From positions 514,206 to 578,205 of the forward strand of contig CAJNOJ010000037.1 in assembly GCA_905250025.1 (NCBI GenBank): a stretch of 64,000 nt of DNA, in the 5' to 3' direction. Every line of letters begins with the position of its first letter. Position 1 is the stretch's first letter. Below, in pieces: positions 12,782-56,646 of the stretch. Origin of the DNA: Adineta ricciae. Lineage: Eukaryota > Rotifera > Eurotatoria > Adinetida > Adinetidae. The notes under the pieces are model-generated. The model had not been told where the DNA came from and made no database searches. It saw nothing but the letters and a program-made list of their open reading frames with translations. A program made the translations under genes and the position numbers.

Positions 12782-13321
12782 ATTTCTATAATCAATCTAA
12801 AGATATGACAACCAACTTGCATAAGAACTTTAAATTGATGGTAGTATACCATGTGTTTCAATTTTTACTCACAAGATAAAGAAAAAGAGCAGAAAACGAA
12901 CGATATGTATGTATGAGCGTCTGACATTATATCATGTAAAACCAGCAGACGAGAATAAGGAGCAAAGAGAAATGAAAAAATGTGCCTTTGTCATGATACA
13001 AAAAATGACAACGAAAAGAAAAATAGGACAATACATACAAGCTAAGTTTGATTTGTGAATGTTTTCGTTTTCTTTTGATATACATCCAACAGTCACAGTA
13101 CGAACAAGTACAAAAAGAAAACACAATCAAATCGATGGTGTACTCATATACACCATCAAAGGAAAGAAAGAAGAAAAAAGGAGAATCAAGACAAGTATAA
13201 GAATCAGAAAAAAGAGGAACAAACAAATAGCACAATACTTTCTTTTTTCGTCTTTTTTTCTCTTCTTTAATGTTTATTACTACTCGATTAACAAGTGAAA
13301 AGCGCAACAATTGAGTTGCCT
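12782..13321. other. PAAF1 upstream region and HMGB 3' flank, no gene seen
   Basis: AT-rich spacer between two minus-strand genes. The longest ORFs are rich in Phe, Lys and Arg codons made by A and T runs and overlap each other on both strands, as expected of chance frames. Confidence 0.55.
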
Positions 13322-15947
13322 TTATTCTTCACCTTCAGATTCGTTATCATCGTCGTCATTATCCTCATCATCGTCATCCTCGTCGCCATCGTGTTGTTGT
13401 TCACCATTGTTATTATTCGTATTATTTTTATTAGTCGAATTCGTATTCGCTGTCGTTAACGTTTGGTAAGTCTACAGCAACAAAATAGGAAATCATCGAT
13501 GAATTCATCAGCAGCGTTTATTCTTACCTGATGCTGAATGTGTTGTTGCAATTGTTGCTGTTGTTGTAAGGCTTGAAATTGCTGTATTTGAACCTAGATA
13601 ACGACATGAGAATGATTTTAATGAAGTTCTTTGGTAAAGGGAAAAGCCGCAGTACGAGAAGAAGAAGAAGTAAGCACACGCACATCGATACGCGAAAGAA
13701 GCCCGGCAATATTTAAGCAAATGGAATACTTACCTCTATTCATCAGGACGAATTTTAATGAGTGGAAAGAAAGGAGTGGTTCGTATTTAGCTGTCTTTTC
13801 TTCTATCTTTATGATTTGTTATTTACACACATAAAACAAGAATAACAAACAAAAACAAACAATGGACAACAGAGTTTGGTTTTTGGAATAAAAAAATCCA
13901 AGGAAGAAAGAAAACCGGAAGAAAAAGAAAACAGAAATGCTGATAGTTAATGTTGATGTACTAATTAGTTATCGTTAACATTCTTATCTTTCGAAACACA
14001 TGCACACTGTTTATCAGAATTATTATTCGGGAGTAGAAAACCAATAGATGAAGGAAGAGAGAGAGAGATTCGTCAATCATTTACACACGTGAAGAATTAG
14101 AAATATACACTGGTCACTGATTTCTGGAGACTTTAGTTTAGAAGAAAACAAGAATAATTAGTTTCTGGGTGCGTATGTATGTGTGTGTGTGCGTACTACT
14201 TCTACTTTTCACTGATATCCTACGTTGTTATGTGGCATTGGTAATGAGTAACCATTGTAAGGAGGGAAAAGTGATGCTGCCAAGCCATTATCTTGAAAAT
14301 TGTTCATTTGAGCAAAAGCCTCGAAAGAAAATTGCAAATAAAATTAATCAATCAAATTTAGTAATTACTTGTGGTTGAAAAGATTGCATTGGATTAAAAG
14401 ATGGTAATTGGTATGGTGCTGAAGAGTACTGTTGTTGTTGTTGTTGTTGTTGTTGCTGCTGCTGTTGTTGCTGTTGTTGAGTCTAGACAATGAGAAGAGA
14501 GGGAATGCAATCGTATTGAACTATTTGACTCACATCTTGATGTACTCTGACTTGTTGATCAGTGTGATGCGATTGTTGTTGTTGTTGTTGTTGCTGTGCT
14601 AACGCTTGAGATGATGAATTTGATTTTGTTGCTTTCTTATTTGCTAATCTGAAGTCATTCATTTCCTAATAATAAAAGAAAAGAAGAACTAATAATAAAT
14701 GATGGACTATGTCGATTAATCATCACTGACTTTTTCATATCTTTCCTTATCTCGTTGTGCAGCTTCTTCATAAGTTTGTTTTCCATCAGGTGCTGTATGA
14801 TTCCATCGATCGCCGAGTTCTTTCGCGATTTCACCCACAGATAAACTTGGATTCACTGCTTTCAATTTGGGACGTTCTTCTTTACAGTAATGAAAGAAAG
14901 CCGATCTAGAACGAAATCAACTCGTGTTCGATCAATTTATCATCGGAAGGAAATATATTACAAAGGACGTTTTGGTGCCAATGGGTCCTTCTTTTTCTTC
15001 TTTCGTTTTTCACCGGGTTGATATACAGCCATTTCACGTTCAAACCGTTGTTTATCGACTTCAGCTTGAGCAGCAAACTTTGATTTTTCACTTTCAGTCA
15101 TTGTCTACAAAATAGACAAATCGATTTCCATTGTTTTTCTTCTCTTCTTCGCTTTCACACTTAAACATTCACTTAATCCTATATAATTTCTCTTTGTTGT
15201 TTGTCCTTGATTAAAGCACGTCAAGAAAGAAGCGAGTGATGGACTCGACTGTGATATGAAAAGCAAATTCAGCAAATTATCATTTCATCATCGGAAAAAG
15301 ATACTGATGAATTTTTGATTAATCCTATTAGAATTTCAGACTGACAGAGATATAATCTCCATGATCATTAGTAAGATTATACTTCGACATTTCAGAAACA
15401 CAAAGAAGAAGAAATAAGTTCGATTTTCTTTCATACCTTCCACTTTTCTGCACATTTCTTCGAGAATTCACTGAAATTAGCATTCTCATTAGGATATGCT
15501 TTTCGATGTTCATCACGGCATTTTTGTACAAAAAATGTGTATGCACTCATTCGGCCTTTGGGTTTGCTCATTTCTTTAGGCGGATGAGAATGCTGATGAT
15601 GATCGCGATTTGTCGTCGATGTTCCCGTTGATTGTGGAATTAGATGATGAACTTGCTGTGCTTGTGGCATCATATGCGGCAATGGCACTTGTTGCTGTTG
15701 CTGTTGTGGATGATAACTACGATGAAGAAGGAGAAAATGAACAAATTCTATTAGAAATAATCTCAATTAACTTCAAAAACGTCATCGAATAAAAAATGAT
15801 TAGAACAAATGTTCTATCACTATTCATTATGTCTCTTATTTCTTTTTTTTCCTCTCTAGTTACTCACTACATTTGCATATGTTGAGCTTGCTGTTGTTGC
15901 TGTTGCGGTGGCACTATCATCGATTGATAATATAGTGCAGAAGTCAT
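13322..15947 (-). CDS. HMGB/Dsp1-like protein with two HMG boxes, polyQ and acidic tail
   Basis: Non-sequence-specific DNA-bending chromatin protein resembling Drosophila Dsp1 and vertebrate HMGB. Exon 1 (15871-15947) starts [10 protein letters not shown] and leads into a Gln/His/Pro-rich N-terminus. HMG box A begins at [20 protein letters not shown] (exon 15437-15716) and continues [11 protein letters not shown] in the exon starting at 15104. The linker is basic ([15 protein letters not shown]). Box B runs [16 protein letters not shown] ... [12 protein letters not shown]. It is followed by polyQ tracts near 14575 and 14430-14480, and another near 13550. The last exon ends in an acidic Asp/Glu tail and stop at 13322. 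The acidic tail and two boxes are classic HMGB; the long polyQ insertions are Dsp1-like. Exon edges in the polyQ part were not all resolved. Confidence 0.9.
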
Positions 15948-17736
15948 TTTGAGTACGCAGATTTAATACGAATGTATTACATCGATAATCATTCTATCTG
16001 TAATCGAACGAGTTGTTTACTGTTTACATCATGTATATAATCAATTGAACCATCACCATCATTATCACTTAACTCAGGCTCAAGTAGTCGACATAAATAA
16101 TTTTCTCTCATTCTTCTGACAACATGTATATATGTGGCAATGATGATGATGATGATGATGGAGCACGCGTTATACATGTGAGTAACAAGGGGGGAGGGAG
16201 GAGAAACAAAACACACTGGAGAACATGCGCAGACTCCGAGTGTGTATATTTGAAAAAACAACAACACATGATATTGTTCGTTTTGATAGGAACAAAGGAG
16301 AAAAGATTCAAGATGTTGAAGGGCGGCATGGTAATGTATGAAAGAATGTGACGAAGACAACGATGTCGACGAAAGGTCCCCTTCCTCTTTTCTTTCTTTT
16401 TTCTAATCGCATTTTCTCTCTTTCTCTCTCGTTCTCTATATTTTGTACGTTAGCTTCGGCCACGCCATATAATTATTTCTTATTTCGTTCGCAGTGGAAG
16501 AGAGAGAGAGGGAAAAGAAAAAAACTGATAGAGAAAATGAATTGTTCTGTTCTAAACAAATCAAGAGTATGCCCGCTCTCGGTTTTTTCTCTCTGTATAT
16601 ATACGTGTCTCTTTCTCTCTCTCCCTCATCCGAGAACAGAACAGAGAAAGAAAAACTTAATTAATCGAGGGCAACTTATACATAGAGATAGGTTTGAAAG
16701 TTTGTCGGACACGTTCGCCAAGGGTCAAGTAGAGCGAGAATGACGAGAGAAAAGGGAGAGAGAGAGGAAGAGAGCAAATAAACGAGCGACCATGATGATT
16801 TATCGCCTATCGATTTCAGGTCAGACACGTTCGAATAAGTTCTTACAATTGATCATATTGTTCTGCAAAATATTGACATGAACGAAAGAGGCAAAATATA
16901 AAAAATAACTTCGAATAACAACAAATGATGATGAACAATGACAATCGATTGTCAAAAGTAATTCAGTTTTAACAAGTTCTTCTCCTTCTTCCTTCTTCGT
17001 CATATTTTTCACTCTAACGAGAAGGAAAAATGTCATGTTGAGAATGTCACTACTACCAAGAAGAAAGGTTATGCGAAATGTAAACATTGTTTAAACGCAA
17101 ATAGATTGATCTCCTATCGAGATTAGTTTTCCATCGGTATGTTAACTAATGACATGATCGATTTTGTTCGAACATCTTTCGAAATCGAAGTGTCTTACCC
17201 AGTCGGTATTTGCATTTGTTGTCGATCAGGTAATTGCATAAGTGGAAAATGTTGATGTGGGTGCATACCGTCAACAAATGGTGAAAACATATGAAATAAG
17301 TTAGTGAAAAGCCAAAACGAAATAAATAGCAAAAATGTTTGATTATCTGCAAAGAAAATCTATTTGTTTCTGTACTTATTGATAACAACAAATCAAAACT
17401 AAAATTGTCTTTTTTTTTCTTTCTTTAAACATTCAGTTCATCGATTTCCGTTCGGATTTGTCCTATTGGCTACAGTAGACAGCCAATACAATCAACATGT
17501 GAATGCATAAGTGTGATAAAAGAGAGAATTCAACAATTTTCTCGTATTTTTCTGAATGAAAATCAAATTATAAATCAATTTCTTTTTTTCTCTCGACAAA
17601 TCTTCATTTATTCCATTCAGAAAAACACTTCTAAACAATTGTTGTTATTCCCTTTTTGTCAACATATTTACGCAATTGCAGCATACTTCGAACAGCAATT
17701 CAGTTCTTACTCTTGGTTAGTATTGCTTAATACGCC
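15948..17736. other. divergent HMGB / SF3B1 upstream region (copy 1)
   Basis: Shared upstream region of the minus-strand HMGB gene and the plus-strand SF3B1 gene. It contains a short ATG/GATG run near 16138-16160 and long purine- and pyrimidine-rich tracts (about 16375-16440, 16495-16530, 16600-16660, 16740-16775). Apart from the doubtful two-exon candidate, ORFs here arise from those tracts. Confidence 0.6.
15989..17283 (-). CDS. possible small two-exon gene upstream of HMGB
   Basis: Hypothetical. On the minus strand an ATG near 17283 opens MFSPFVDGMHPHQHFPLM... ending in a good donor (ACTGG/GTAAGA). About 1.1 kb on, an acceptor (TTGTCAG/AAG) near 16117 leads in compatible phase into a frame reading LEPELSDNDGDGSIDYIHDV and stopping at 15989. 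The joined product would be about 72 residues with no recognised domain. The His/Gln/Met-rich first exon resembles the HMGB N-terminus, so it could instead be an alternative 5' exon of that gene. The stop lies 42 bases before the HMGB start codon. Both pieces recur in copy 2 (about 26227-27522). Confidence 0.3.
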
Positions 17737-20700
17737 ATGAGTTCCAAACACGACGGTAGGATTTATCGATGTTCAAAATAAATCGAATCATTGATTTTCT
17801 TTGTTTTTTTTTGTAGCAATTGAAGCTCAATCGAAAGCTATACGTGATGAACGACGAAAAGAAGAAGATGAAGCTCGTGGTACACGATTCGGTCAACAAA
17901 TTCTCGACACAGAAGTCTACGAAGATGATGGTCGTAGTAGCTATTTGAATTATTTACCTAAAGGAAACGATGAAGACGTGAGTTAATAACAATTCATTTG
18001 AAAACAAAACGGAAAGAATGTTTTTCTGTATTGTTTCAGGATGAAGAGGAAAACTATCAAACATCGTTGTCAAACATGAAATTGAAACAGTATGGACCAT
18101 CTGCTGATATCCGACAAAATATTCCAAACGTCGATAAGGTGAGCCTAAAATGTTTTGCTCTTTGATACAAGAAAGTCTTTTTCTTTAATAGAACTACGAT
18201 CCATTAGCAGAATATCGTCGACCAACAATAGCTGATCGAGAAAATGAATACCAAAAGAAACGACGTATGCAACCGGGAATGATTTCACCTGAACGATTGG
18301 ATTATTTCGCTGATGGTAAATGATCTGTTTTCTTGATTATTTAGTGTGGAAGTATATTCTCTCATATTCGAAGAGGCTATTTTGATACCGAGTTCATTTT
18401 TATAGGCGTCTGGCGACATGGATAACTCTACTCTCTATATACATACATCATCTTCATATCCATTAGTTTCTGATAGGAAGACAAGGTGTGAATGATTCAT
18501 AAAAAAAAAACACCGATTTTATTTTATCAGAATCTTAGCTTATTTTTAGACTTTAAACGATTATCAACGTGCTGTTTTCATTCGCAACGTTGACAGTCAT
18601 CTTGCTTGAAATGAGCTCGAGCATGGTACAGATACTACTACACATGTATTTCTTTTCTTTTCATAAACCTTTCCTTTTTCTCTCTCAAGTCTTTCTTGAT
18701 GTTCACTCAAGATTTCAAAAGAGGTAGTATTCATTCATATAACGGTGGGTCTTTTAATCATTTCTTTGAAAATAGTGATCTAGTTGAAGATAAGGTTCTT
18801 TTCATTTTGGATTAACAATTCTGATTTTGTAATTTAGGCGGCAAAACACCTGATCCACAAGCGAAAGGTCGTGGCTATGCAGACATCATGGGAGAAATGG
18901 CTCTACGAAATGCGAAGGCGGATACACGCAATCAAATTGCAGACAAACTGAAAGCAGCCGAAGGTCAGAGCGGTGCCGGAGCAAATGGAAGTGCAAGTGC
19001 ATCCGGAGAAAAGCGCCGACGACGATGGGATCAAACGGCTCCAGCGGATGATAATGATCCTAAAGCGAAGAAAACTGCCTATGATGAAGCCGTAACACCA
19101 GCTCATCGAATGTGGGATGCAACGCCAGCTCCTGGCCAATCATCGTTCGATGAAACACCAATGGCTTCACGTACGCCAGGTGCTGAAACGCCGCATCATT
19201 CAGCAACACCGTCAAATAAACGCAACCGATGGGACGAAACACCACGCACCGAACGTGAAACAACGAATTCCGGTTGGGCAGAAACGCCTAGAACGGATCG
19301 TGGTGGTATGGATGATTCCGATTATATTATGGGAGCAACTCCTACACCGGGTGATAAACGTCGTTCACGTTGGGATGAAACACCAGCAAATGCAACCACA
19401 ACAAATGGAGGCGGTTTTACACCATTAGCGAAAGAAATAGGTGTTGCGTCAACTCCGCGTACCGCCAGCGGTTTTACACCAGGCATGACACCAATCATAG
19501 CAACACCTGTCGGCGCACGCGCTGCTAATATGGCTACGCCAATAGTTAATCAAGTTCCAATGACACCGGAGCAGATGCAAGCTTATCGTTGGGAACGTGA
19601 AATCGATGAACGTAATCGTCCACTATCAGATGAAGAACTCGATGCTATGTTTCCACCAGGATACAAAGTTTTGCCACCACCGGCATCCTATGTACCTATT
19701 CGAACACCAGCACGAAAATTAATGGCAACACCCACACCACAATCGACGATGTCTGGTTTTCACATTCAAGAATCGGCTCATGGACAAGCTGCTCAATCGA
19801 ACCAATTGCAAGAATATCAACCGTCAGGAAATTTACCTCTCTTAAAACCAGATGATCTACAATATTTCGATAAACTATTACAAGAAGTCGATGAAGAAGC
19901 TTTGACGCCTGAAGAACAAAAGGAACGTAAAATTATGAAACTATTATTAAAAATTAAAAATGGTACACCGCCTATGCGTAAAGCAGCACTACGACAGATC
20001 ACTGATAAAGCACGTGAATTTGGTGCTGGTCCACTATTTAATCAGATCTTACCATTGCTAATGTCGCCAACATTAGAAGATCAAGAACGTCATTTACTTG
20101 TAAAAGTTATCGATCGTATTCTCTATAAACTTGATGATCTTGTTCGTCCCTATGTTCACAAGATATGCGTCGTTATCGAGCCATTGTTGATTGATGAAGA
20201 TTATTATGCACGTGTCGAAGGTCGTGAAATTATATCAAATTTAGCTAAAGCTGCTGGTTTGGCGACAATGATTTCCACAATGCGACCTGATATTGATAAC
20301 TTGGATGAATATGTACGTAATACAACTGCTCGTGCGTTTGCTGTCGTTGCATCAGCGCTCGGTATCCCAGCTTTATTACCATTTTTAAAAGCTGTTTGTA
20401 AAAGTAAAAAATCTTGGCAAGCAAGACATACGGGTATAAAGATCATCCAACAAATCGCTATTCTTCTCGGTTGTGCCATTTTACCACATTTGAAATCTTT
20501 GGTGGAAATTATCGAACATGGTAAGAAGATCAATATTTCATTCGTTTTTCTTCTAACATGCTTAACATTTCAATTCTAGGTCTCGTCGATGAACAACAAA
20601 AAGTTCGAACAATTACTGCTCTGGGTATCGCCGCGTTGGCAGAGGCAGCTGCACCTTACGGTATCGAATCTTTTGATACTGTACTCAAACCGTTATGGGC

Positions 20701-22673
20701 TGGTATTAAGGAACATCGTGGCAAAGTAAGTTAACTTGTTGAACTGAAAATGAACATAGTATACTGTGTAATTTAGGGTCTGGCTGCTTTTCTCAAAGCC
20801 ATTGGTTATTTGATTCCGTTGATGGATGCCGAATATGCTGGTTACTATACCCGTGAAGTAATGCTTATCCTAATCCGTGAATTTCAATCTCCCGATGAAG
20901 AAATGAAGAAGATTGTTCTCAAAGTCGTTAAACAATGTACAGCAACGGATGGTGTCGAAGCAAAATATATTAAAGAAGAAGTTCTGCCAGCCTTCTTTCG
21001 ATACTTCTGGAATCAACGTATGGCGCTCGATCGTCGTAATTATCGGCAGCTAGTCGATACCACTGTCGAAATGGCCAATAAAGTTGGCTCATCAGAAATT
21101 ATCAATCGTATTGTGGATGATTTAAAGGATGAATCCGAACAATACCGTAAAATGGTTATTGAAACGATCGAAAAGATCATGACAAATCTGGGTTCTGCTG
21201 ATATCGATTCACGTTTAGAAGAACAATTAATTGATGGTATACTTTACGCGTTTCAAGAACAAACAACCGAAGATGCTGTGATGTTGAATGGATTCGGTGC
21301 CGTGGTCAATTCGTTAGGAAAACGTTGCAAAGCATATCTACCTCAAATGTGTGGTACAATTCTCTGGCGTTTGAATAATAAAGCAGCTAAAGTTAGACAA
21401 CAGGCCGCTGATCTTATTCAGAAAATAGCGAATGTTATGAAACTATGCTCCGAAGAAAAACTAATGGGACAATTAGGTCTCGTCTTATATGAATATCTAG
21501 GTGAAGAGTATCCGGAAGTTTTAGGAAGTATTCTTGGAGCATTAAAAGGTAAGAATTTATCAAAAGTACATATAAAAATCTATTTGACATATTTTAGGAA
21601 TTGTGAATGTGATTGGTATGACTAATATGACACCACCGATCAAAGACTTATTACCCCGATTAACACCCATTCTGAAAAACAGGTAGATTCAATTTTGAAA
21701 ATAAGATAGTTTTGTTTATTGTATATTTTTAGACATGAAAAAGTTCAAGAAAATTGTATTGATCTTGTCGGCCGTATTGCTGAATTAGGTGCTGAACATG
21801 TTCCAGCTCGTGAATGGATGCGTATTTGTTTTGAACTACTTGAACTGCTCAAAGCACATAAGAAATCAATTCGTCGTGCTGCTATCAACACATTTGGTTA
21901 CATCGCTAAAGCCATTGGTCCACATGATGTCCTTGCAACATTATTAAACAATTTGAAAGTCCAAGAACGTCAACTACGTGTTTGTACAACTGTTGCCATT
22001 GCTATTGTCTCAGAAACATGTTCACCGTTCACTGTCCTACCCGGTAAATCATCTTATTGTACTCTATTCTTGTCAAATTATCTTTTCTCATTTAGGTCTC
22101 ATGAATGAATATCGTGTGCCGGAATTGAATGTTCAAAATGGTGTTTTGAAAGCACTGGCATTTATGTTTGAATACATTGGCGAGATGTCCAAGGATTACA
22201 TCTATGCTGTAACACCTTTATTGGAAGATGCAATGATGGACAGAGATTTAGTTCATCGGCAAACCGCGATGACTGCCATTGGACACATGTCACTAGGTGT
22301 ATTCGGTTTCGGATGTGAAGATGCTTTATGTCATTTATTAAATCATGTTTGGCCAAATATCTTCGAAACAAGTCCTCATGTTATTCAAGCATTCATTTCA
22401 GCTATCGAAGGTATACGCGTGGGTCTTGGCCCATGTCGAATTCTGTATTATACATTACAAGGCCTATTTCATCCCGCTCGTCGTGTGCGTGATGTATACT
22501 GGAAAGTTTACAACACCATTTATATCGGTGCACAAGATTCCCTAGTAGCTGCGTATCCACGTATTGTAGATGATAGTATTCATTCAACCATCGAAGGAGA
22601 TGAAATACCTCAAAAGCGTACGAAAAAACTACGCAATGATTATGCTCGATATGAACTTGATTACATTCTTTAA
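17737..22673 (+). CDS. SF3B1: splicing factor 3B subunit 1, copy 1
   Basis: Core U2 snRNP protein that clamps the branch-site helix. Ten exons join in frame: 17737-17755, 17817-17977, 18040-18138, 18192-18315, 18838-20520, 20580-20725, 20777-21548, 21598-21682, 21733-22043 and 22096-22673, giving 1325 residues (human about 1304). The N-terminal half has TP-rich repeats and U2AF-ligand motifs ([38 protein letters not shown]). It is followed by [20 protein letters not shown], then the HEAT solenoid with near-invariant stretches such as [20 protein letters not shown] and [10 protein letters not shown] (the region of human K700). It ends ...[10 protein letters not shown]. Intron 4 is about 520 nt, ten times its neighbours. 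The C-terminus has about 18 extra residues before the terminal motif. All exons are intact. Confidence 0.97.
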
Positions 22674-23539
22674 ACGAAAAACGTGTTTCATCAGTAATCT
22701 GTTGTCATTTCGTGTCTCTTATTGTTGTTCTCATTTCACTTCCTGTACTCGTATAGGTACGTCTATATTACGTACGGTATACCAAGATGAGACTAAATTC
22801 AAGCATAGAAACCAAGAACACATACGTACGATTCTTTTTTCTTCTTTAATGTATTTACGTTTGTTTTCTCTCTTGTGCTGGTCCTTTGTTCTATCTCTTT
22901 GTGTTCGTAATAAACAACTGAAACTAACTTTTTCAAGAACAAAGAAGAGAAAAATATCGAGTTGAATTGAATGTTATCAACTGAATAATGAAACTAAATC
23001 AAAACTGCGTTGGCGATATGTGCTTAAAGTTTGCAAAGTAATCATATATTAGCAGAACAAGGTTATCTTAGTCCAACAAGATGTAATCTAAGTAAACTAT
23101 TTTTCTATCTACAACTATGAATAACTGTAGTTTAAAGATAAATCTATTGAATTATTGTGCCGTAAAGACGTTCGATTGTTTATTTACGAAGAAAAGTTGT
23201 GCTCTATTTATGTAATACTTCTTTTTTTTAATCTTAGTTTTGCCGTTTCATCACCTAACCGACATTAGTTAGATAGTGAAGAAAGAGAAAGAAATCTGTT
23301 GCTGATGTCTTTTCAACTACTGGCGAAAAATGAGCAACAAAGTAAAGAGAAAAGGAGAATCTTAGATAACCATATCTTCTCTGTTGCTGCTCTTTATCTA
23401 AAGTTGATGCAAATAAAAGCTGAGGACTATTTGTTTTCTTTTTTATTATTATCATTTACGACTTCGGTGTCTTTCAATGCTATTGCTCTTCTAGTTTCTA
23501 GTTAGGAGTTGTAGCAACATAGTGTTTCTTTCGTGCGAA
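22674..23539. other. SF3B1 3' flank to SUEL/CUB gene start (copy 1)
   Basis: Plus-strand spacer between two same-direction genes, with the SF3B1 3' UTR at its left. A pyrimidine-rich stretch ending in an AG close to 23500 could be an acceptor for a 5' UTR intron or leader. ORFs here look random. Confidence 0.5.
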
Positions 23540-26104
23540 ATGATGACAATTAGATTCTTGTTATTCACTAGTTTGTATATATTACAATATATCTTTTACA
23601 CTAATGGACAAAAGGTACAAACAATGGTTCCTGTTGAGACTTGCGCTGCATCAAGTGCTACTCTTCGTTGTCCACCTAACTCTGTAATTGTCGTTACAAG
23701 TGCTGAGTATGGCGTAGCGCAAGTAGCCGGCTCATGTAGTTACAAAGCTGGTGATTGCGTGGCTGATGCTATGAATGCCATTGTATGTAATACAGATTCT
23801 CTCCAATGCAATGTATACGCAACCAAAAAGAAATTATCGGAATGCAATGATCAATACAGCAGCTATCTTCACGTCGAATATGACTGTGTACCGTTACAAA
23901 TGAACGATCCAGCGAGAGAATACAATGTTTGTCAAAATGGTAGCGAAATAACAACTGATAATGGTATCATCAAATCACCCGGTTATCCATCACAATTTCA
24001 ATCCACTTCAAAGGAATGTTTTCGTGCCATTCATGTACCTGAGGATAAGACCATTCGTTTATGGTTAAGTGACTTATATATTCCTATGGGAACTAGCTGT
24101 ATCAAGGACTATGTTTATGTAGTCGACAGTGTACAAACGTATAAACATTGTGGTACCAAACGATATGCATATCCATACTTATGTTCATCAACAGTTCTCA
24201 TTCAATACTATACGCTGACGACATCGACGTTTTATCGTGGTTTAAGAATGTACTTTGAAATAGTCGATCGAGTGCCAAATGATCGTTGTCCGAATTCCAC
24301 TGCAACAATTACACCAGTTGTACCAACAACAACACTTTCAACAACTGTCTCGCCAGATGTAACAACAACTGTACCTATTTATGTCATACTTGGTATTTCT
24401 TCGCCTGTCCGAAGTTTTCAACTTTGCAAAGGTAAATTTGGCTTCAACTTGCACATCTTAAGAAAACGGTTCAAAACTTTTTTGTGTTTCAGGTGAATCA
24501 CATAAACTTGAATGTCCGACCAACTATCTCGTCACTGTGAGAGCAAACATCTTCGGTGTTACTTCATCTGATCAATGTGAAGCTCATGATGCTGCTAGAC
24601 ATTGTGTCGTAGCCACAGAGCCCACCTTCTGGTGTTATCAAAGTTGTACATACACGTACACAGGTAATCGGCAACTTTCCTCGTGCAACAACAAATATGC
24701 CACTTATCAATACGTCGAATATCAATGTATTCCGAGAACCGCTCCAGTTGTATCAACTAATACACCATGTCCAACAGATGGGTCAAAAGTTCCAATTAAA
24801 ATCGACCGTCGTGGTCGTTTTCAAAGTTACAACTATCCAGCCTTTCTGACGATGAATTGTGTCTACCGATTTTCAACAAAACCCGGTGATATTATGCATT
24901 TCTATTCAATCGATATCAATCTAAACGATTGGTCAAAAGATTGTAAATCGAATAAAATCTCATTTGTAGAGGATGGTGAGACTGACGGTCCATCATTTTG
25001 CGAAGAAGATCAAACGACTCTACTCTATTCGACATGTTCAAACGAAATCGACATGCGCTATTCTGTTATTGACGGTAGTATGCTATTTTCTGAAGGTGTT
25101 GAATTATACATTGAAAGTCAAGCGCGTCCATCAGACTGGTCATGTGGCAAACCGGGATCAACCATAACTACTCCACGTCCTTCACCGACAACGCCATTTA
25201 CTACTCCAACAGAAAAGCCGCTAACAAATGAAACAACAATGACCGCGCGCGATGAAATCGAACACGATATTTGCTATACAAAATCATTAACTCACACATG
25301 TCCAACAGGTTATACATTCATGTTCATTGATGCTTTTTATGGTGTTAAAAGTCAATCATCAAACAAATGTGGATTCGTTCAAGGTGACTGTGTGCACGAA
25401 ACATTATCAGCACTTACACAATGCAAAACCGATGCAGCAAATTGTTACATATCTTATTCGACACAACGTCGACTCGCTCAATGTTTAGATAAATATGCCG
25501 ACTATCTACATATCACTAGTCAATGCGTTCCTAGCAAATCAGCTAGCGCAACAGCAACCATTCGCACATATGATATTTGTGATACAAACGGTGATATCGC
25601 AGACTTTAATGGTATCATAACGAGTCCTGGCTTTCCAACATATAAACAATCCAATGGCATTTGTAAACGATCAATTCTCGGTGTGCCAGATCGAGTTCTC
25701 AAAATTTGGATCAATGAAATGGCTACTGCAACTGGTGGACAACGTAATATTGATGGTAAGCATTCTCTTTGATAGTTCTGTATTTTATTCTATTCTTTTG
25801 CAGATGAATCAAATGAACCGAATTTAGTTCTCTATAAAACTTATGAAAATGAAAATGTAGTCAAACGCATTGAACAACATCCAGCCATTCGTGATACCTG
25901 CGTGGACGATTATTTGATCGTCAATACTCCACATGTTTCTTACGTTTATTGCGGCAAAAGAAAATTAGCCATGATGCCTATTTGTGCATCACGTGTAGAT
26001 ATTCAATACAAAGCTTCGTCTCCACCGAATATTTTCTATAAAGGTTTCAAATTCTATTTCGAATGGGTAGAAAAACCTGTTGAAATTAACTGTGGTGGCA
26101 ATCC
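23540..26104 (+). CDS. SUEL-lectin/CUB membrane protein, copy 1, cut by N gap
   Basis: 5' part of the same gene as at 33777-40888. Exons 23540-24431 and 24493-25755, then 25804 into the gap at 26105. The ATG (MMTIRFLLFTSLYILQ...) gives a signal peptide; the longer frame from 23522 begins with GTG and is not used. Domains: SUEL lectin 1 (LRCPPNSVIVVTSAEYGV), CUB 1 (GIIKSPGYPSQF), SUEL 2, CUB 2, SUEL 3 and most of CUB 3, with Thr-rich linkers. No stop or frameshift occurs before the gap, so the truncation is set by the assembly, not by visible mutation. Differences from copy 2 are mainly scattered substitutions. Confidence 0.9.
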
Positions 26105-26190
26105 NNNNNNNNNNNNNNNNNNNNNNNNNNNNNNNNNNNNNNNNNNNNNNNNNNNNNNNNNNNNNNNNNNNNNNNNNNNNNNNNNNNNNN
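26105..26190. other. assembly gap, 86 N
   Basis: A run of 86 unknown bases lying exactly between the end of repeat copy 1 and the start of copy 2. It falls inside a coding exon on its left and in HMGB-upstream sequence on its right, so the two sides are not continuous in any gene. Confidence 0.99.
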
Positions 26191-27975
26191 GTACGCAGAT
26201 TTAATACGAATGTATTACATCGATAATCATTCTATCTGTAATCGAACGAGTTGTTTACTGTTTACATCATGTATATAATCAATTGAACCATCACCATCAT
26301 TATCACTTAACTCAGACTCAAGTAGTCGACATAAATAATTTTCTCTCATTCTTCTGACACATGTATATATGTGGCAATGATGACGATGGTGATGATAGAG
26401 CACGCGTTATACATGTGAGTAACAAGGAGGTAGGGAGGAGAAACAAAACACACTGGAGAACATGCGCAGACTCCGAATGTGTATATTTGAAAAAACAACA
26501 ACACATGATATTGTTCGCTTTGATAGGAACAAAGGAGAAAAGATTCAAGATGTTGAAGGGCGGCATGGTAATGTATGAGAGAATGTGACGAAGACAACGA
26601 TGTCGACGAAAGGTCCCCTTCCTCTTTTCTTTCTCTTTTCTAATCGTATTTTCTCTCTCTCTCGTTCTCTATATTTTGTACGTTAGCTTCGGCCACGCCA
26701 TATAATTATTTCTTATTTCGTTCGCAGTGGAAGAAAGAGAGAGAGAGGAAGAAGAAAAAAACTGATAGAGAAAATGAATTGTTCTGTTCTAAACAAATCA
26801 AGAGTATGCCCGCTCTCGGTTTTTTCTTTCTGTATATATACGTGTCTCTTTCTCTCTCTCCCACCCGAGAACAGAACAGAGAGAAAAACTTAATTAATCG
26901 AGGGCAACTTATACATAGAGATAGATTTGAAAGTTTGTCGGACACGTTCGCCAAGGGTCAAGTAGAGCGAGAATGACGAGAGAAAAGGGAGAGAGAGATG
27001 GAGAGGAAGAGAGCAAATAAACGAGCGACCATGATGATTTATCGCCTATCGATTTCGGGTCAGACACGTTCGAATAAGTTTTTACAATTGATCGTATCCT
27101 TCTGCAAAGTATTGACATGAACGAAAGAGGCAAAATATGAAAAATAACTTCGAATAACAACAGATGATAATGAACAATGACAATCGATTGTCAAAAGTAA
27201 TTCAGTTTTAACAAGTTCTTCTCCTTCTTTCTTCTTCGTCATATTTTTCACTCTAACGAGAAGGAAAAATGTCATGTTGAGAATGTCACTACTACCAAGC
27301 AGAAAGGTTATGTGAAATGTAAACATTGTTTAAACGCAAATAGATTGATCTCCTATCGAGATTAGTTTTCCATCGGTATGTTAACTAATGACATGATCGA
27401 TTTTGCTCGAGCATCTTTCGAAATCGAAGTGTCTTACCCAGTCGGTATTTGCATTTGTTGTCGATCAGGTAATTGCATAAGTGGAAAATGTTGATGTGGA
27501 TGCATACCGTCAACAAATGGTGAAAACATATGAAATAAGTTAGTGAAAAACCAAAACGAAATAAATAACAAAAATGTATGATTATCTGCAAAGAAAATCT
27601 ATTTGTTTCTGTACTTATTGATAACAACAAATCAAAACTAAAATTGTCTTTTTTTTTCTTTCTTTAAACATTCAGTTCATCGATTTTCGTTCGAATTTCT
27701 CCCATTGGCTACTGCAGACAGCCAATTCAATCAACACGTAAATGCATAAGTGTGATAAAACGAAGAATTCGACAAATTTTCCGTATTTTTATGAATGAAA
27801 ATCAAGTTATAAATCAATTTCTTTTTTTCTCTCGACAAATCTTCATTTATTCCTTTCAGAAAAACACTTCTAAACAATTGTTGTTATTCCCTTTTTGTCA
27901 ACATATTTACGCAATAGCAGCATACTTCGAACAGCAATTCAGTTCTCACTCTTGGTTAGTATTGCTTAATACGCC
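26191..27975. other. SF3B1 upstream region (copy 2)
   Basis: Repeat of the HMGB/SF3B1 divergent region, with the same doubtful minus-strand exon pair (about 26227-27522) and the same purine and pyrimidine tracts. The HMGB coding exons that should follow on the left are missing because of the gap. One small indel relative to copy 1 sits just before the candidate minus-strand splice acceptor. Confidence 0.55.
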
Positions 27976-30900
27976 ATGAGTTCCAAACACGACGGTAGGA
28001 TTTATCGATGTTCAAAATAAATCGAATCATCTATTTTTGTTTTTTTCTTTGTAGCAATTGAAGCTCAGTCGAAAGCTATACGTGATGAACGACGAAAAGA
28101 AGAAGATGAAGCTCGTGGTACACGATTCGGTCAACAAATTCTTGACACAGAAGTCTACGAAGATGATGGTCGTAGTAGCTATTTGAGTTATTTACCTAAG
28201 GGAAACGATGAGGACGTAAGTTAATGACAATTCACTTGAAAAAAAATAACGGAAATCATGTTTTTCTATATTGTATTAGGATGAAGAGGAAAACTATCAA
28301 ACATCATTGTCAAACATGAAATTGAAACAATATGGACCATCTGCTGATATCCGACAAAATATTCCAAACGTTGATAAGGTAAGTGTACAATGCATTGCTC
28401 TTCGATACAAGAAAGTCTTTTCTCTAATAGAATTATGATCCATTAGCAGAATATCGTCGACCAACAATAGCTGATCGAGAAAATGAATATCAAAAGAAAC
28501 GACGTATGCAACCGGGAATGATTTCACCTGAACGTTTGGATTATTTCGCTGATGGTAAATGATCTGTTTTCTTGATTATTTAGTGTGGAAGTATATTCTC
28601 TCATATTCGAAGAGGCTATTTTGATACCGAGTTCATTTTTATAGGCGTCTGGCGACATGGATAACTCTACTCTCTATATACATACATCATCTTCATATCC
28701 ATTAGTTTCTGATAGGAAGACAAGGTGTGAATGATTCATAAAAAAAAAACACCGATTTTATTTTATCAGAATCTTAGCTTATTTTTAGACTTTAAACGAT
28801 TATCAACGTGCTGTTTTCATTCGCAACGTTGACAGTCATCTTGCTTGAAATGAGCTCGAGCATGGTACAGATACTACTACACATGTATTTCTTTTCTTTT
28901 CATAAACCTTTCCTTTTCTCTCTCAAGTCTTTCTTGATGTTCACTCAAGATTTCAAAAGAGGTAGTATTCATTCATATAACGGTGGGTCTTTTAATCATT
29001 TCTTTGAAAATAGTGATCTAGTTGAACATAAGGTTCTTTTCATTTGGATTAATAATTCTGATTTTGTAATTTAGGCGGCAAAACACCTGATCCACAAGCG
29101 AAAGGCCGTGGCTATGCAGACATCATGGGAGAAATGGCTCTACGAAATGCGAAGGCGGATACACGCAATCAAATTGCAGACAAACTAAAAGCAGCCGAAG
29201 GTCAGAGCGGTGTCGGAGCGAATGGAAATGCAAGTTCAGCCGGGGAAAAACGCCGACGACGATGGGATCAAACAGCACCAGCAGATGATAATGATCCTAA
29301 AGCGAAGAAAACTGCCTATGATGAAGCCGTAACACCAGCTCATCGAATGTGGGATGCAACACCAGCTCCCGGCCAGTCATCGTTCGATGAAACACCAATG
29401 GCTTCACGTACGCCAGGTGCTGAAACGCCGCATCATTCAGCAACACCGTCAAATAAACGCAATCGATGGGACGAAACACCACGCACCGAACGTGAAACAA
29501 CGAATTCCGGTTGGGCAGAAACGCCTAGAACGGATCGTGGTGGTATGGATGATTCCGATTACATAATGGGAGCAACTCCTACACCGGGCGATAAACGTCG
29601 TTCACGTTGGGACGAAACACCGGCAAATGCAACCACAACAAATGGAGGCGGTTTTACACCATTAGCGAAAGAAATCGGTGTTGCGTCAACTCCTCGTACT
29701 GCCAGCGGTTTCACACCAGGCATGACGCCAATCATAGCAACACCTGTCGGCGCACGCGCTGCTAATATGGCTACGCCAATAGTCAATCAAGTTCCAATGA
29801 CACCGGAGCAGATGCAAGCTTATCGTTGGGAACGTGAAATCGATGAACGTAATCGTCCATTATCAGATGAAGAACTCGATGCTATGTTTCCACCAGGATA
29901 CAAAGTTTTACCACCACCGGCATCCTATGTACCTATTCGAACACCAGCACGAAAATTAATGGCAACACCCACACCACAATCGACGATGTCTGGTTTTCAC
30001 ATTCAAGAATCGGCTCATGGACAAGCTGCTCAATCGAACCAATTGCAAGAATATCAACCGTCAGGAAATTTACCACTCTTAAAACCAGATGATCTACAAT
30101 ATTTTGATAAACTATTGCAAGAAGTCGATGAAGAAGCTTTGACACCTGAAGAACAGAAAGAACGTAAAATCATGAAACTATTATTAAAAATTAAAAATGG
30201 TACACCGCCTATGCGTAAAGCAGCACTACGACAGATCACTGATAAAGCACGTGAATTCGGTGCTGGTCCACTATTTAATCAGATTTTACCATTGTTAATG
30301 TCGCCAACATTAGAAGATCAAGAACGTCATTTACTTGTAAAAGTTATCGATCGTATTCTCTATAAACTTGATGATCTTGTTCGTCCCTATGTTCACAAGA
30401 TATGTGTCGTTATCGAACCATTGTTAATTGATGAAGATTATTATGCACGTGTCGAAGGTCGTGAAATTATATCAAATTTAGCTAAAGCTGCTGGTTTGGC
30501 GACTATGATTTCCACAATGCGACCTGATATTGATAACTTAGATGAATATGTACGTAATACAACTGCTCGTGCGTTTGCTGTCGTTGCATCAGCGCTCGGT
30601 ATTCCAGCTTTATTACCATTTTTGAAAGCTGTTTGTAAAAGTAAAAAATCTTGGCAAGCAAGACATACGGGTATAAAGATCATCCAACAAATCGCTATTC
30701 TTCTCGGTTGTGCCATTTTACCACATTTGAAATCTTTGGTGGAAATTATCGAACATGGTAAGAAGATCAATATTTCATTCACTTTTCTTCTCACATGCTT
30801 AACGTTTCAATTCTAGGTCTCGTCGATGAACAACAAAAAGTTCGAACAATTACTGCTCTGGGTATCGCGGCTTTGGCAGAAGCAGCTGCACCTTATGGTA

Positions 30901-32910
30901 TCGAATCTTTTGATACTGTACTCAAACCGTTATGGGCTGGTATTAAAGAACATCGTGGCAAAGTAAGTTACCTTGTTGAACTGAAAATGAACATAGTCTA
31001 CTGTGTGATTTAGGGTCTGGCTGCTTTTCTCAAAGCCATTGGCTATTTGATTCCACTGATGGATGCCGAATATGCTGGTTACTATACCCGTGAAGTGATG
31101 CTTATCCTAATCCGTGAATTTCAATCTCCCGATGAAGAAATGAAGAAGATTGTTCTCAAAGTCGTTAAACAATGTACAGCAACGGATGGTGTCGAAGCAA
31201 AATATATTAAAGAAGAAGTTCTGCCAGCCTTCTTTCGATACTTCTGGAATCAACGTATGGCGCTCGATCGTCGTAATTATCGGCAGCTAGTCGATACCAC
31301 TGTCGAAATGGCCAATAAAGTTGGCTCATCAGAAATTATCAATCGTATTGTGGATGATTTAAAGGATGAATCCGAACAATACCGTAAAATGGTTATTGAA
31401 ACGATCGAAAAGATCATGACAAATCTGGGTTCTGCTGATATCGATTCACGTTTGGAAGAACAATTGATTGATGGTATACTTTACGCTTTTCAAGAACAAA
31501 CAACCGAAGATGCTGTGATGTTGAATGGATTCGGTGCCGTGGTCAATTCGTTAGGAAAACGTTGTAAAGCATATTTACCTCAAATGTGCGGTACGATTCT
31601 CTGGCGTTTGAATAATAAAGCAGCTAAAGTTCGACAACAGGCCGCTGATCTTATCCAGAAAATAGCGAATGTTATGAAACTATGCTCCGAAGAAAAACTA
31701 ATGGGACAATTAGGCCTTGTCTTATATGAATATCTGGGTGAAGAGTATCCGGAAGTTTTAGGAAGTATTCTTGGAGCATTGAAAGGTAAGAATTAGTCAA
31801 AAGTACATATAGAAATCTATTTCGCATATTTTAGGAATTGTGAATGTGATTGGTATGACTAATATGACACCACCGATCAAAGACTTATTACCCCGATTAA
31901 CACCCATTCTGAAAAACAGGTAGATTTAATTTTGAGAATAAGATAGTTTTGTTTATCGTACATTTTTAGACATGAAAAAGTTCAAGAAAATTGTATTGAT
32001 CTTGTCGGCCGTATTGCTGAATTAGGTGCCGAACATGTTCCAGCTCGTGAATGGATGCGTATTTGTTTTGAACTACTTGAACTGCTCAAAGCACATAAGA
32101 AATCAATTCGTCGTGCTGCTATCAATACATTTGGTTACATCGCTAAAGCTATTGGTCCACATGATGTTCTTGCAACATTATTAAACAATTTGAAAGTCCA
32201 AGAACGTCAACTACGTGTTTGTACAACTGTTGCCATTGCTATTGTCTCAGAAACATGTTCACCGTTCACTGTTCTACCCGGTAAATCATCTTATCGTATT
32301 CTATTCTTCTCAAATTGTCTTTTCTTCTTTAGGTCTCATGAATGAATATCGGGTGCCGGAATTGAATGTTCAAAATGGTGTTTTGAAAGCACTAGCATTT
32401 ATGTTCGAATACATTGGCGAGATGTCCAAGGATTACATCTATGCTGTAACACCTTTATTAGAAGATGCAATGATGGACAGAGATTTAGTTCATCGGCAAA
32501 CCGCGATGACTGCCATTGGACACATGTCACTAGGTGTATTCGGTTTCGGATGTGAAGATGCTTTATGTCATTTATTAAATCATGTTTGGCCAAATATCTT
32601 CGAAACAAGTCCTCATGTCATTCAAGCATTCATTTCTGCTATCGAAGGTATACGCGTGGGTCTTGGCCCATGTCGAATTCTGTATTATGCACTACAAGGT
32701 CTATTTCATCCTGCTCGTCGTGTACGTGATGTGTACTGGAAAGTTTACAACACGATTTATATCGGTGCACAAGATTCCCTAGTAGCTGCATATCCACGTA
32801 TTGTAGATGATAGTATTCATTCAACCATCGACGAAGATGAAATACCTCAAAAGCGTACGAAAAAACTGCGCAATGATTATGCTCGATATGAACTTGATTA
32901 CATTCTTTAA
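27976..32910 (+). CDS. SF3B1: splicing factor 3B subunit 1, copy 2
   Basis: Second complete SF3B1 gene with the same ten-exon structure. Checked exons: 27976-27994, 28055-28215, 28280-28378, 28431-28554, 29075-30757, 30817-30962 and 31014-31785, followed by the three terminal exons to 32910. The HEAT region is essentially identical to copy 1 in protein. Differences cluster in disordered parts: [15 protein letters not shown] against [15 protein letters not shown] in the N-terminal half, and [10 protein letters not shown] against [10 protein letters not shown] near the C-terminus. No stop or frameshift is present. Both copies therefore look functional, as expected of alleles or a recent duplicate. 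The 520-nt intron 4 is almost identical to that of copy 1. Confidence 0.97.
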
Positions 32911-33776
32911 ACGAAAAACATGTTTCATCAGTAATCTGTTGTCATTTCATGTCTCTTATTGTTGTTCTCATTTCACTTCCTGTACTCGTATAGGTACGTC
33001 TATATTACGTACGGTATACCAAGATGAGACTAAATTCAAGCATAGAATCCAAGAGCACATACGTACGATTCTTTTTTCTTCTTCGATGTATTTACGTTTG
33101 TTTTCTCTCTTGTGCTGTTCCTTTGTTCTATCTCTTTGTGTTCGTAATAAACAGCTGAAACTAACTTTTTCAAGAACAAAGAAGAGAAAAATATCGAGTT
33201 GAATTGAATGTTCTCAACTGAATGACGAAACTAAATCAAAACTGCGTTGGCGATATGTGCTTAAAGTTTGCAAAGTAAACATATGTTAGCAGAACGAGGT
33301 TATCTTAGTCCAAAATGGTGTAATCTAAGTAAACTATTTTTCTATCTATAACTATGAATAACTATAGTTTAAAGATAAATTTATTGAATTATTGTGCTGT
33401 AAAGACATTTGATTGTTTATTTACGAAGAAAAGTTGTGCTCTATTTATGTGGTACTTCTTTTTTTTAATCTTAGTTTTGCCTTCTCATCACCTAACGGAC
33501 ATTAGTTAGATAATGAAGAAAGAGAAAGAAATCTGTTGCTGATGTCTTTTCAACTACGGGCGAAAAATGAGCAACAAAGTAAAGAGAAAAAGAGATTCTT
33601 AGATAACCATATCTTCTCTGTTGCTGCTCTTTATCTAAAGTTGATGCAAATAAAAGCTAAAGACTATTTGTTTTCTTTTTTATTATTATCATTTACGACT
33701 TCGGTGTCTTTCAATGCTATTGCTCTTCTAGTTTCTAGTTAGGAGTTGTAGCAACATAGTGTTTCTTTCGTGCGAA
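32911..33776. other. SF3B1 3' flank to SUEL/CUB gene start (copy 2)
   Basis: Counterpart of 22674-23539 with scattered substitutions. No separate gene seen. Confidence 0.5.
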
Positions 33777-36700
33777 ATGATGACAATTAGATTCTTATTA
33801 TTCACTAGTTTGTATATATTACAATATATCTTTTACACTAATGGGCAAAAGGTACAAACAATGGGTCCTGTTGAGACTTGCGCTGCATCAAGTGCTACTC
33901 TTCGTTGTCCAGCTAACTCTGTAATTGTCGTTACAAGTGCTGAGTATGGCGTAGCGCAAATAGCCGGCTCATGTACTTACACAGCTGGTGATTGCGTGGC
34001 TGATGCTATGAATGCCATTGTATGTAATACAGATTCTCTCCAATGCAATGTATACGCAACCAAGAAGAAATTATCGGAATGTAATGATCAATACAGCAGT
34101 TATCTTCACGTCGAATATGACTGTGTACCGTTACAAATGAACGATCCAGCGAGAGAATACAATGTTTGTCAAAATGGTAGCGAAATAACAACTGATAATG
34201 GTATCATCAAATCACCCGGTTATCCATCACAATTTCAATCCACTTCAAAGGAATGTTTTCGTGCCATTCATGTACCTGAGGACAAGACCATTCGTTTATG
34301 GTTAAGTGATCTATATATTCCAATGGGAACTGGTTGTCTCAAGGACTATGTTTATGTAGTCGACAGTGTGCAAACGTATAAACATTGTGGTACCAAACGA
34401 TATGCATATCCATACTTATGTTCATCAACAGTTCTCATTCAATACTATACACTGACTACATCGACGTTTTATCGTGGTTTAAGAATGTACTTTGAAATAG
34501 TCGATCGAGTGTCAAATGATCGTTGTCCGAATTCCACTGCAACAATTACACCAGTTGTACCAACAACAACACTTTCAACAACTGTCTCGCCAGATATAAC
34601 AACAACTGTACCTATTTATGTCATACTTGGTATTGCTTCACCTGTCCGAAGTTTTCAACTTTGCAAAGGTAAACTTGGCTTCAATTTGCAAATCTTAAGA
34701 AAGCGATTCGAAACGTTTTTGTGTTTCAGGCGATTCGCATAAAATTGAATGTCCCACCAACTATGTCGTTACTGTGAGGGCAAACATCTTCGGTGTTACT
34801 TCATCTGATCAATGTGAAGCTCATGATGCTGCTAGACATTGTGTCGTGGCCACAGAGCCCACCTTCTGGTGTTATCAAAGTTGTACATACACGTACACAG
34901 GTAATCGGCCACTTTCCTCGTGCAACAACAAACCTGCCACTTATCAATATGTCGAATATCAATGTATTCCGAGAAATGCTCCAGTTATATCAACTAATAC
35001 ACCATGTCCAACAGATGGGTCGAAAGTTCCAATTAAAGTCGACCGTCGTGGTCGTTTTCAAAGTTACAACTATCCGACGTTTCTGACGATGAATTGTGTC
35101 TACCGATTTTCAACAAAACCCGGTGATATTATGCATTTCTATTCAATCGACATCAATCTAAACGATTGGTCAAAAGATTGTAAATCGAATAAAATCTCAT
35201 TTGTAGAGGATGGTGAGACTGACGGTCCGTCATTTTGCGAAGAAGATCAAACGACTCTGCTTTATTCGACATGTTCGAACGAAATCGACATGCGCTATTC
35301 TGTTACTGACGGTAGTATGCTATATTCCGAAGGTGTTGAATTATACATTGAAAGTCAAGCACGTCCATCAGATTGGTCATGTGGCAAACCGGGATCAACC
35401 ATAACTACTCCACGTCCTTCACCCACAACGCCATTTACTACTCCAACAGCAAAACCCCTAACAAATGAAACAACGATGACCGCTCGAGATGAAATCGAAC
35501 ACGATATTTGCTATACGAAATCATTAACTCACACATGTCCAGCAGGTTATACATTCATGTTCATTGATGCTTTTTATGGTGTTAAAAGTCAATCATCAAA
35601 CAAATGTGGATTCGTTCAAGGTGACTGTGTGCATGAAACATTATCAGCACTTACACAATGCAAAACCGATGCAGCAAATTGTTACATTTCTTATACAACA
35701 CAACGTCGACTTGCTCAATGTTTAGATAAATATGCCGACTATCTACATATCACTAGTCAATGCGTTCCTAGCAAATCAGCTGGCGCAACAGCAACCATTC
35801 GAACATATGACATTTGTGATACAAACAGTGATATCGCAGACTTTAATGGTATCATAACGAGTCCTGGCTTTCCAACATATAAACAATCCAATGGTATTTG
35901 TAAACGATCAATTCTCGGTGTGCCAGATCGAGTTCTCAAAATTTGGATCAATGAAATGGCTACTGCAACTGGTGGACAACGTAACATTGATGGTAAGCAT
36001 TCTCTTTGATAGTTCTGTATTTTATTCTATTCTTTTGTAGATGAATCAAATGAGCCGAATTTAGTTCTATATAAAACTTATGAAAATGAAAATGTAGTCA
36101 AACGCATTGAACAACACCCAGCCATTCGTGACACCTGCGTGGACGATTATTTGATCGTCAATACTCCACATGTTTCTTACGTTTACTGCGGCAAAAGAAA
36201 ATTAGCCATAATGCCTATTTGTGCATCACGTGTAGATATTCAATACAAAGCTTCGTCTCCACCGAATATTTTCTATAAAGGTTTCAAATTCTATTTCGAA
36301 TGGGTAGAAAAACCTGTTGAAATTAACTGTGGCGGCAATCCTGGCCTATCAACAACAACACCACTGAATGAACCAGTTCCTCTCTGGGCACAAAATCTGG
36401 AACTTTCGCCTATCCTTTCTCACCAAATCTGTCTTGGAAATTCACATACATTACGATGTCCTCGTGGATCGGATTATGTTCTTTCAATCATCGAATCCAA
36501 TTATGGTGTGACTGGTACAGGCATATGTGAAATCCCATCATCGACGCATTGCCATCAAGAAGCTGCACTCGACTTGACATGTACGCAATCGTGTTACATC
36601 GAATACGATCTTCCAAAGCCGTTAACACAATGTGGACTGCAAAATGCTGATTATATTAGCATCGATTATGAGTGTATTCCAACACGTTTACCAGACAATG

Positions 36701-39700
36701 AGAATCCGATTGATATATGTGCATCGACGTCAACAGATACAATTGCCATGAACACAGGTATGATGATTAGTCCACAGTATCCCAGTCTAGGTGCAGCACG
36801 TACGTGTTCGAAACGAATTGAAACATTGCCAAGCAAATTATGGATGGTCTTTGTTGTCGATCTGTTCTTGGAAGGATCGAACGATGCTGGTGACTGTAAT
36901 GCGGCATCCTTAACAATCAACGATGGAAACGATCGAATTGTTCTTTGCGGTTCACAGCAACCTCAACTTGTTCTTGTCAGTTGCTCGCATATTGTAGATT
37001 TTAAGTTTGTTTCAACTCATCAAGCGCTTGGTTATCGTGGTTTCAAAGTTTTCTTTCAAACAGTTGATGTTCCCGATGGTTGGACATGCAAACCCAGTGG
37101 CTTCACAACAACAACGCCAAGACCAACAACTCCTCGACCTCCAACTACGATAAGTCTTTTACCTCCTAGCGCTCTCAGTAAGTTTAATCGTAGTTTCGAA
37201 GTAAATTCTTCTAATTCTACTCTTTTCAGTTGGTGCTTATGGTGGTACAACGAATGGTACACGTCAATATTGTAAACTTCCATTTACCTATCAGAACAAC
37301 ACGCAAACCGTTTGTTTAAGATCTGATCCACCAACTACTCCACCAAGTCAAGGCATGAAAGGACCGTGGTGTTCGTTAACAAGTAACTTCGATACAGATC
37401 GTCAATGGGGTTTTTGTGAACTAGGTATAACTGATTCAACAACTTACGACATATGTCGTGGTCAATCTCAAATTCTTCGATGTCCAGCTGGTTATGTCAT
37501 TGATATCGTCACTGGTGATTATGCTGCTAAACCTGATGGAAACACTGGTGCTGGCGCTTGTGTATATGATCAAAATGATTGCTTTCAAAGTGATTCACTA
37601 ACGATTCAAACTGTCTGTGCCGGTAAACCAACATGCACAGCATATCACTTTTCTAAGACTTTAACAGCGTGCCAAAATCGACCAACAGCTTATTTTCATG
37701 TTACTTACACATGTATTCCGAATGATATAGCAGAAATTAGTGTTTACAACCTATGTAACAGTGGCACATTACCAACTGCTGATGTGGAACGTGGATTTCT
37801 CATTTCACCAAATTTTCCTAATACGCAAAACAATTTCAATTGTGCGTTTGAACTGAAAACAGTTAAACCACGTCAGGACATCTATGTCTACATTGTCGAT
37901 ATGGATTTGAACAGTCAGCCTATACTTGGACAAGGATGTCTAAAAGACCGATTGATCGTTTCAGCTGATAATAATATCATGGAAATGTGCGGCCGATCAG
38001 CGACAAACTTCTTACTGAATACATGTCATTCATCCGTAACATTTCAATTGATTCGAGCAGGTGATGCAAAAGGTCGTGGTGTGAAATTCTATTTCGAATT
38101 CCGTGATCGATCACCCGATGAAACATGTCCAATTTTATATTCAACAACTACACGTGCATCAACAACATCAGTATCGCCACAGACAACGACTACAGCACCG
38201 CTGCCAAGTTACTTTCCCGATCCAAGTCCCCGTGATTTCAAAACTTTATGCTTTCCAGATGTTTCGTCCTTATTTGGTACAAAGAATTTTCAATGTCCCA
38301 AAGATTACGTTCTGGTCATCCTTCGAGCATTTTACGGCAAAGGTGGCCGATGTGCTTACACACCCGGTGATTGTACATCAGAAGCTGACATCGTCTATCG
38401 TACATGTGCAGGTAAACAAGCATGTTCCGTTCCGTTTATCAACCTTGTCACTCTGAACGAATGTAACAAAGCAACGGCTAACTATCTTTTTGTTGAATAC
38501 CAATGTCTACCAACACCGTCAATTGCTGTGTCAAGTTCAGAGCTATGCTCGGGTCAATTAAGTACTATTACTGGAACTTCTGGTGTCCTACAAAGTCCAT
38601 CATACCCAACGTACTTTCAAACAACTTGTCCTAATGTGACCTTAAGTTCAGATTCAAGTAGTCTTGTCGTATACATGTATTTGCTTGATATGAGTGTGGC
38701 TCAGCCTGATCTAAGTACTGGCGCCTGCACTAATGACTATCTATCATTATCTTATCAATGTAACAATCAGTTATTCAGCGTCAATTTATGCGGCACACGT
38801 CAAACCGAATTACTATTTAGTACATGTTCACCAACTGATAAAATCTTCGCTTCATATTCGTTACTCAATTCCGACCTAACATCATATCGTGGTTTTGCTT
38901 TATTGTATCAACTCGTACCACAATCTGCTGCGATCACGACTACTACAACACTAAAACCTGCATCAACGTCAACGACAACAACGGCTATTATTGGACCTGG
39001 TTCAGTAAGTACACCGAATCAAATAGTAACAACATGTGTTCAACAGTCTATTACATTACGCTGTCCCCAGAACTACGGTGTTATTGTTCATAAAGTTGAA
39101 CTTGGTGTAAGTGCAACTGGTAGTTGTATTTATTCGAATACAGATTGTTTCGAAGATCGCAGTAATCTATACAATCTTTGCGGCGGAAAACCTTTATGTA
39201 ACATATTTCCACCACTTATTTCACTAAAAGGATGCAACAATTCCAAATCAAACTATCTATATGCTGAATATCAATGCATACCATTACGACCAAAATTCAA
39301 TGTTGATGTATGCGCATCAGCAGCACCTCAAAAAATCGACGGTGGTATAATTGTTTCTTCGGTTAACTACACAGCAACATATAAACAATGTGGTATGCAA
39401 TTACAATCCTCGAAATTATTGGGTAATCAAGCTCATAAAGCATTCCGAATTTACGTTGTCACATTGAATTTACCATTACGAGCAATGATTCGTGAACAAG
39501 GTGCACAATGTAGCGATGATGATCCATTCGTCGAAATCAATGATCCTGAGTCGGGTGTCACACGTCTATGTGGTAATAGTCACACACGATACCTGCTAGA
39601 AACATGTTCAGATACAGTCAGCATTCGATTCAATAATGTTCAAATGAACACAGGTACGGCAAAATATAAAGGTTTCGAAATATATTTTGAATCAATTGAA

Positions 39701-56490: not shown

Positions 56491-56635
56491 AGCAAAGTGT
56501 CTTCATTTCCATACGTGTTTTTCTTTTCTATATTTATTTTATTTATTGTATATGATTTTCTTTCGTGTTTATTATCATTCAATCGTGGAAAGATGATGCA
56601 GAGCTTTTATATTCAAAAAGAAAACAATGATTTTT

Positions 56636-56646
56636 GCCTTTTTAAG
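56636..56646 (+). promoter_or_regulatory. acceptor-like site just before mL41 start
   Basis: TGCCTTTTTAAG-type pyrimidine run ends in AG nine bases before the mL41 ATG. With only 166 bases between the Beclin stop and this ATG, it could be a trans-splice acceptor for a downstream operon gene. Confidence 0.35.

Follow-up and report, generated by a model that had tools for sequence, protein, structure and literature searches.

Does the bdelloid rotifer Adineta ricciae carry two adjacent genes for the core splicing protein SF3B1, or does its assembly present one locus twice? The question is raised by a 64-kb stretch of DNA (hereafter the window, the final 64 kb of contig C37) in which a block containing SF3B1 recurs in series on the two sides of an assembly gap. 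At face value, this locus would be counted both as an SF3B1 gene gain and as a linked homologous block, and linked homologous blocks have been read as evidence for ameiotic bdelloid genomes (PMC5916493). We find that the locus is most likely an ordinary one, with no new gene duplication, and we assign a probability of about 0.93 to its being an assembly artefact, namely a false heterotype duplication in which two allelic contigs with a 10-kb overlap were set in series.

The repeat and its genes

The single N run of the window occupies positions 26105-26190 (86 bases). The segment to its left, 15953-26104 on the forward strand (copy 1, which we read as the end of a left allelic contig), matches the segment to its right, 26191-36341 on the same strand (copy 2, read as the start of a right allelic contig), as a direct repeat of 10.15 kb with 96.5% identity over 10164 columns (BLAST, E = 0), which is far above the chance level. 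No further self-match was found in the 64-kb window by BLAST at E<=1e-10. A global MAFFT alignment of the two copies contains 327 substitutions (243 transitions and 84 transversions), a substitution divergence of 3.2%, along with 25 gap columns. Copy 1 ends on the last base before the gap and copy 2 begins on the first base after it, with the outer limits of the repeat at 15953 and 36341; the preliminary description of two blocks of ~10.15 kb, in the same orientation, meeting only at 86 Ns and each flush with its edge of the gap, is thus correct in its coordinates. Within the unit, the divergence between the copies reaches 8.0% and 9.3% in two 250-base bins at 17443-18190, before SF3B1, and is followed by an identical run of 378 bases. 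A search of the window for telomere repeats (at least two TGTGGG units) gave no hit.

The copies share a run of 125 identical bases at the unit start, and 8 bases, a mismatch and then 122 bases at the unit end. Runs as long as that at the start occur at 6.6% of positions and mismatches as few as those at the end at 13.3%; since these edge runs are of ordinary length, we make no claim for the identical k-base edges that are the signature of a de Bruijn bubble.

The minus strand to the left of the unit carries an HMG-box gene that belongs to neither copy (14716-15766, limits approximate; ORF pieces 14716-14916 and 15431-15766; Pfam PF00505 and PF09011). Its nearest ORF piece is ~0.2 kb from 15953, placing the unit start in the flank of the gene, as had been proposed. 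SF3B1 itself is indeed present in both copies on the plus strand, as judged from protein matches and from a first large exon that is open over 584 amino acids in each. In copy 1 (18825-22670, exact limits approximate) the open pieces are 18825-20576, 20777 to about 21550 and 21957-22670, and in copy 2 (29062-32907) they are 29062-30813, 31014-31793 and 32194-32907; the three pieces match the N-terminal, middle and C-terminal parts of solved SF3B1 chains. Copy 2 has one stop within the SF3B1 slice 20780-21620, which lies just past the end of the protein match (residue 258, about 21550) and is read as intronic. The large gene 3′ of SF3B1, also on the plus strand, encodes SUEL-lectin, CUB and fibronectin-II domains and, in copy 2, continues past the unit into the flank on its right (33732-40885). 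The ORF 36013-37272 is open across 36341/36342, the right end of the unit, which therefore falls within an exon of this gene. As a consequence, the gene is truncated in copy 1, where its 5′ part (23495-26104) is cut mid-exon by the gap, a feature absent from the preliminary description.

Copy number and homoeologous contigs

We searched a genome of 130,461,839 bases in 1033 contigs for further copies of the unit and its surroundings. A 2-kb query from inside the unit (20000-22000) recovers just the two copies. The flank queries (12900-15900, 38400-41900 and 54500-64000) recover themselves at 100% and otherwise matches of 65-91% identity, the highest over 35 bases, which sit on C11 with a few small ones elsewhere; no close second copy of these three flank pieces is present in the 130-Mb assembly. 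The tested flank pieces are therefore single and the unit is double, on evidence that covers these four intervals as a part of the window. The remaining flanks are covered by 10-kb queries, for which 5/6, 39/57 and 3/4 of the candidates were scored and the self match was unlisted; this incomplete scoring is no proof of single copy, and we rely on the shorter pieces. Surroundings represented once and copies at allelic divergence are what a false heterotype duplication should display, a criterion that we add to those listed in PMC9516828. Within the right flank, 43990-44303 and 44388-44549 belong to a repeat with 65-82% identity to at least 33 other contigs, which has stops in the one frame tried and in seven contigs (C21, C64, C226, C267, C353, C363 and C591) lies at most 1.8 kb from the contig end.

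The homoeologous contig C11 displays the left flank, the unit and the right flank in the same order, with one copy of the unit. Its matches run through both outer junctions, at 74% over 121 columns (window 15889-16008) and at 65% (34781-39711), and contig C754 aligns without interruption across the right junction at 75.7%. Both outer junctions thus look ancestral from these matches, so that the only new junction is the Ns themselves, the sole junction of the repeat that has no counterpart in C11. The single unit in C11 speaks for the ancestral state only and is compatible with a later duplication. C11 has no match to window 16823-23660, where SF3B1 lies, and a genome search with the first large SF3B1 exon found only the two copies on C37; SF3B1 seems to have been lost from the homoeologous locus on C11 (C11:477001-487000, a homoeolog of the region with no match at the SF3B1 position). 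We rejected the possibility that C754 is a third allele, as its identity is 74-76% and confined to the lectin gene region, part of which it carries. The match (C754:20332-24844, near the contig end) is a third relative of the lectin gene, closer than that of C11, and the neighboring genes of the window have no match in the 7.3 kb of C754 examined; it is perhaps a dispersed paralog.

Allele-like divergence and rival explanations

Pooled over six coding slices, of which the second SF3B1 slice overruns the protein match by some 70 bases, the copies differ by a KS of 0.1105 and a KA of 0.0111 (ratio 0.10). Published values for A. ricciae homologs are a mean KS of 0.135, against 0.05 in A. vaga, and a nucleotide divergence with a median of 4.55% and a mode of 3.75% (PMC5916493). 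The KS of the copies is near this allelic mean, in keeping with the earlier remark that they stand a few per cent apart, like bdelloid alleles, and a divergence of 3.2% would be compatible with one-copy, haplotype-specific k-mers in each copy. The SF3B1 pieces compared have dN/dS values of 0.04-0.14. The three exon pieces of the lectin gene up to the gap give 0.20, 0.14 and 0.08 between copies 1 and 2, with no stop and no indel. With C754 as an outgroup, the differences that can be placed, and these alone, comprise 18 nonsynonymous changes in copy 1 and 11 in copy 2 (p=0.26), a non-significant lean towards copy 1, and 23 and 22 synonymous ones, a comparison of low power. Decay would be the expected fate of a truncated duplicate this old; the constraint seen as far as the gap in the gene that copy 1 truncates, a weak test, points to two whole alleles.

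We infer that the copies are alleles and that a scaffolding step is behind the joint. The left contig would comprise everything up to 15952 together with the first allele of the unit (allele 1), which stops at 26104; the right contig would begin with the second (allele 2) at 26191 and continue with everything from 36342 onward. Alleles 3.2% apart would have been assembled separately, while the DNA on either side was represented once, and scaffolding would then have set the overlapping contigs one after another with Ns, without merging them; SF3B1 would occupy one locus in the animal. This reading, in which two haplotype contigs with a 10-kb overlap stand in series and which the preliminary description already favored, draws support from the flanks, C11, the divergence, the constraint and the other multi-N gaps (see below), and fits poorly with the small positive size of the gap, which is the main point against it: paired reads should yield a gap of 86 bases if the copies were truly adjacent and a negative one for a 10-kb overlap. 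Joining guided by a reference or by transcripts, in which a fixed number of Ns is inserted, could produce a small positive gap despite an overlap.

That small positive gap is what a real 10-kb tandem duplication would predict, in one or both haplotypes and with its junction inside the gap, which would leave two complete SF3B1 genes beside one truncated lectin gene. If the gap hides the junction, the geometry is identical under such an event, and the openness of the first large SF3B1 exon in both copies, together with the constraint on the SF3B1 pieces, would also suit such a duplication. We nevertheless regard it as unlikely: its junction is represented by Ns without any sequenced base (an absence of sequence, not contrary sequence), its breakpoint would fall in an exon of a gene that remains constrained in copy 1 up to the gap (at low power), its divergence happens to be near the allelic level, a like pattern recurs at two other multi-N gaps, and C11 has one unit, though this bears on the ancestral state only. 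A specific form of such an event, in which a fairly old tandem duplication (KS 0.11) followed the loss of SF3B1 from C11 and the two adjacent genes brought this core splicing gene back to its former dosage, is very unlikely. Chimeras arising from amplification are a known phenomenon, and a chimera formed during whole-genome amplification could have linked the two ends; the matching published sample was whole-genome amplified (PMC7943196). Such a chimera, or else a duplication on one allele only, is highly improbable in our estimate, as the chimera needs an extra event and, arising by chance, leaves the like pattern at the two further multi-N gaps unexplained.

The published A. ricciae assembly ARIC003, probably the source of the genome searched here (less its short scaffolds), has 135.6 Mb in 4302 sequences with an N50 of 283.8 kb at rank 129, a GC content of 35.5% (36.3% in the window) and 39% duplicated BUSCO genes (PMC7943196), the last being a mix of homoeologs and any second alleles. 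The methods of that paper call the reference assemblies haploid and do not name A. ricciae in the scaffolding steps. As the full complement of A. ricciae is about 200 Mb (PMC5916493), many second alleles probably remain in the 135-Mb assembly. Against the artefact reading, the 2018 paper reports unexplained depth differences in A. ricciae, with segmental duplication as one possible cause (PMC5916493). False heterotype duplications (Genome Biol 2022;23:205, PMC9516828) likewise consist of divergent alleles on one scaffold with a gap between them, with one spurious gene gained and one gene broken as a result, and in the sequence-level features compared, we found no difference from the present locus. 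A gap between the members of a pair is a listed mark of false duplications (PMC9516828); it is present here and is the sole listed mark that can be assessed from sequence alone. In A. ricciae, two homologous blocks on one scaffold have been reported, both of them tandem repeats, as here, and many collinearity breaks span scaffold gaps, just as the present joint lies at a gap; those blocks are on named scaffolds of the 2018 assembly (Nowell 2018, PMC5916493). The titles and abstract openings of the papers listed by our search, which was aimed at bdelloid assemblies and false duplications, do not name the locus.

Other gaps in the assembly

We examined nine further N runs from the fetched loci, two of them multi-N and seven single-N; this census is non-random, because several loci entered it via the right-flank repeat, and the sequence available was less than 3 kb in all for C353 and C267, and 4 kb per side for C516 and C152. 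At the 41-N gap of C56, direct near-copies of 2.4 kb in two pieces (92.5% and 93.9%) are flush on both sides to within 2 bases. The 59-N gap of C161 has a direct near-copy of 2.1 kb (96.2%) that is flush on the right only, with about 1.66 kb on its left side lacking a partner, an asymmetry that counts against the artefact reading. Including that of the window, all three multi-N gaps (3/3) thus have direct near-copies flush at one or both edges. Among the single-N gaps, one of seven has a flush direct copy (C161, 678 bases, 93.7%, left edge), and such a copy is absent from the other six examined, which likewise counts against it; another single-N gap of C161 has inverted partners only, and C516 has a 91-base direct match that is not flush with its gap. 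In 114 kb of C37, the only other self-matches at E<=1e-10 come from short tandem repeats, a few hundred bases in size, towards the distant end of that stretch, in sequence free of N runs. The similar copies at the other multi-N gaps examined suggest that this assembly needs a gap-edge filter before gene counts or linked homologous blocks are drawn from it.

The copies at the C56 gap open with exactly 55 identical bases, and 55 is a common k value in de Bruijn assembly. The same contig features, 3.6 kb past its 41-N gap, a tandem array of ~2.5 kb with a period of ~141 bases (C56:201557-204050).
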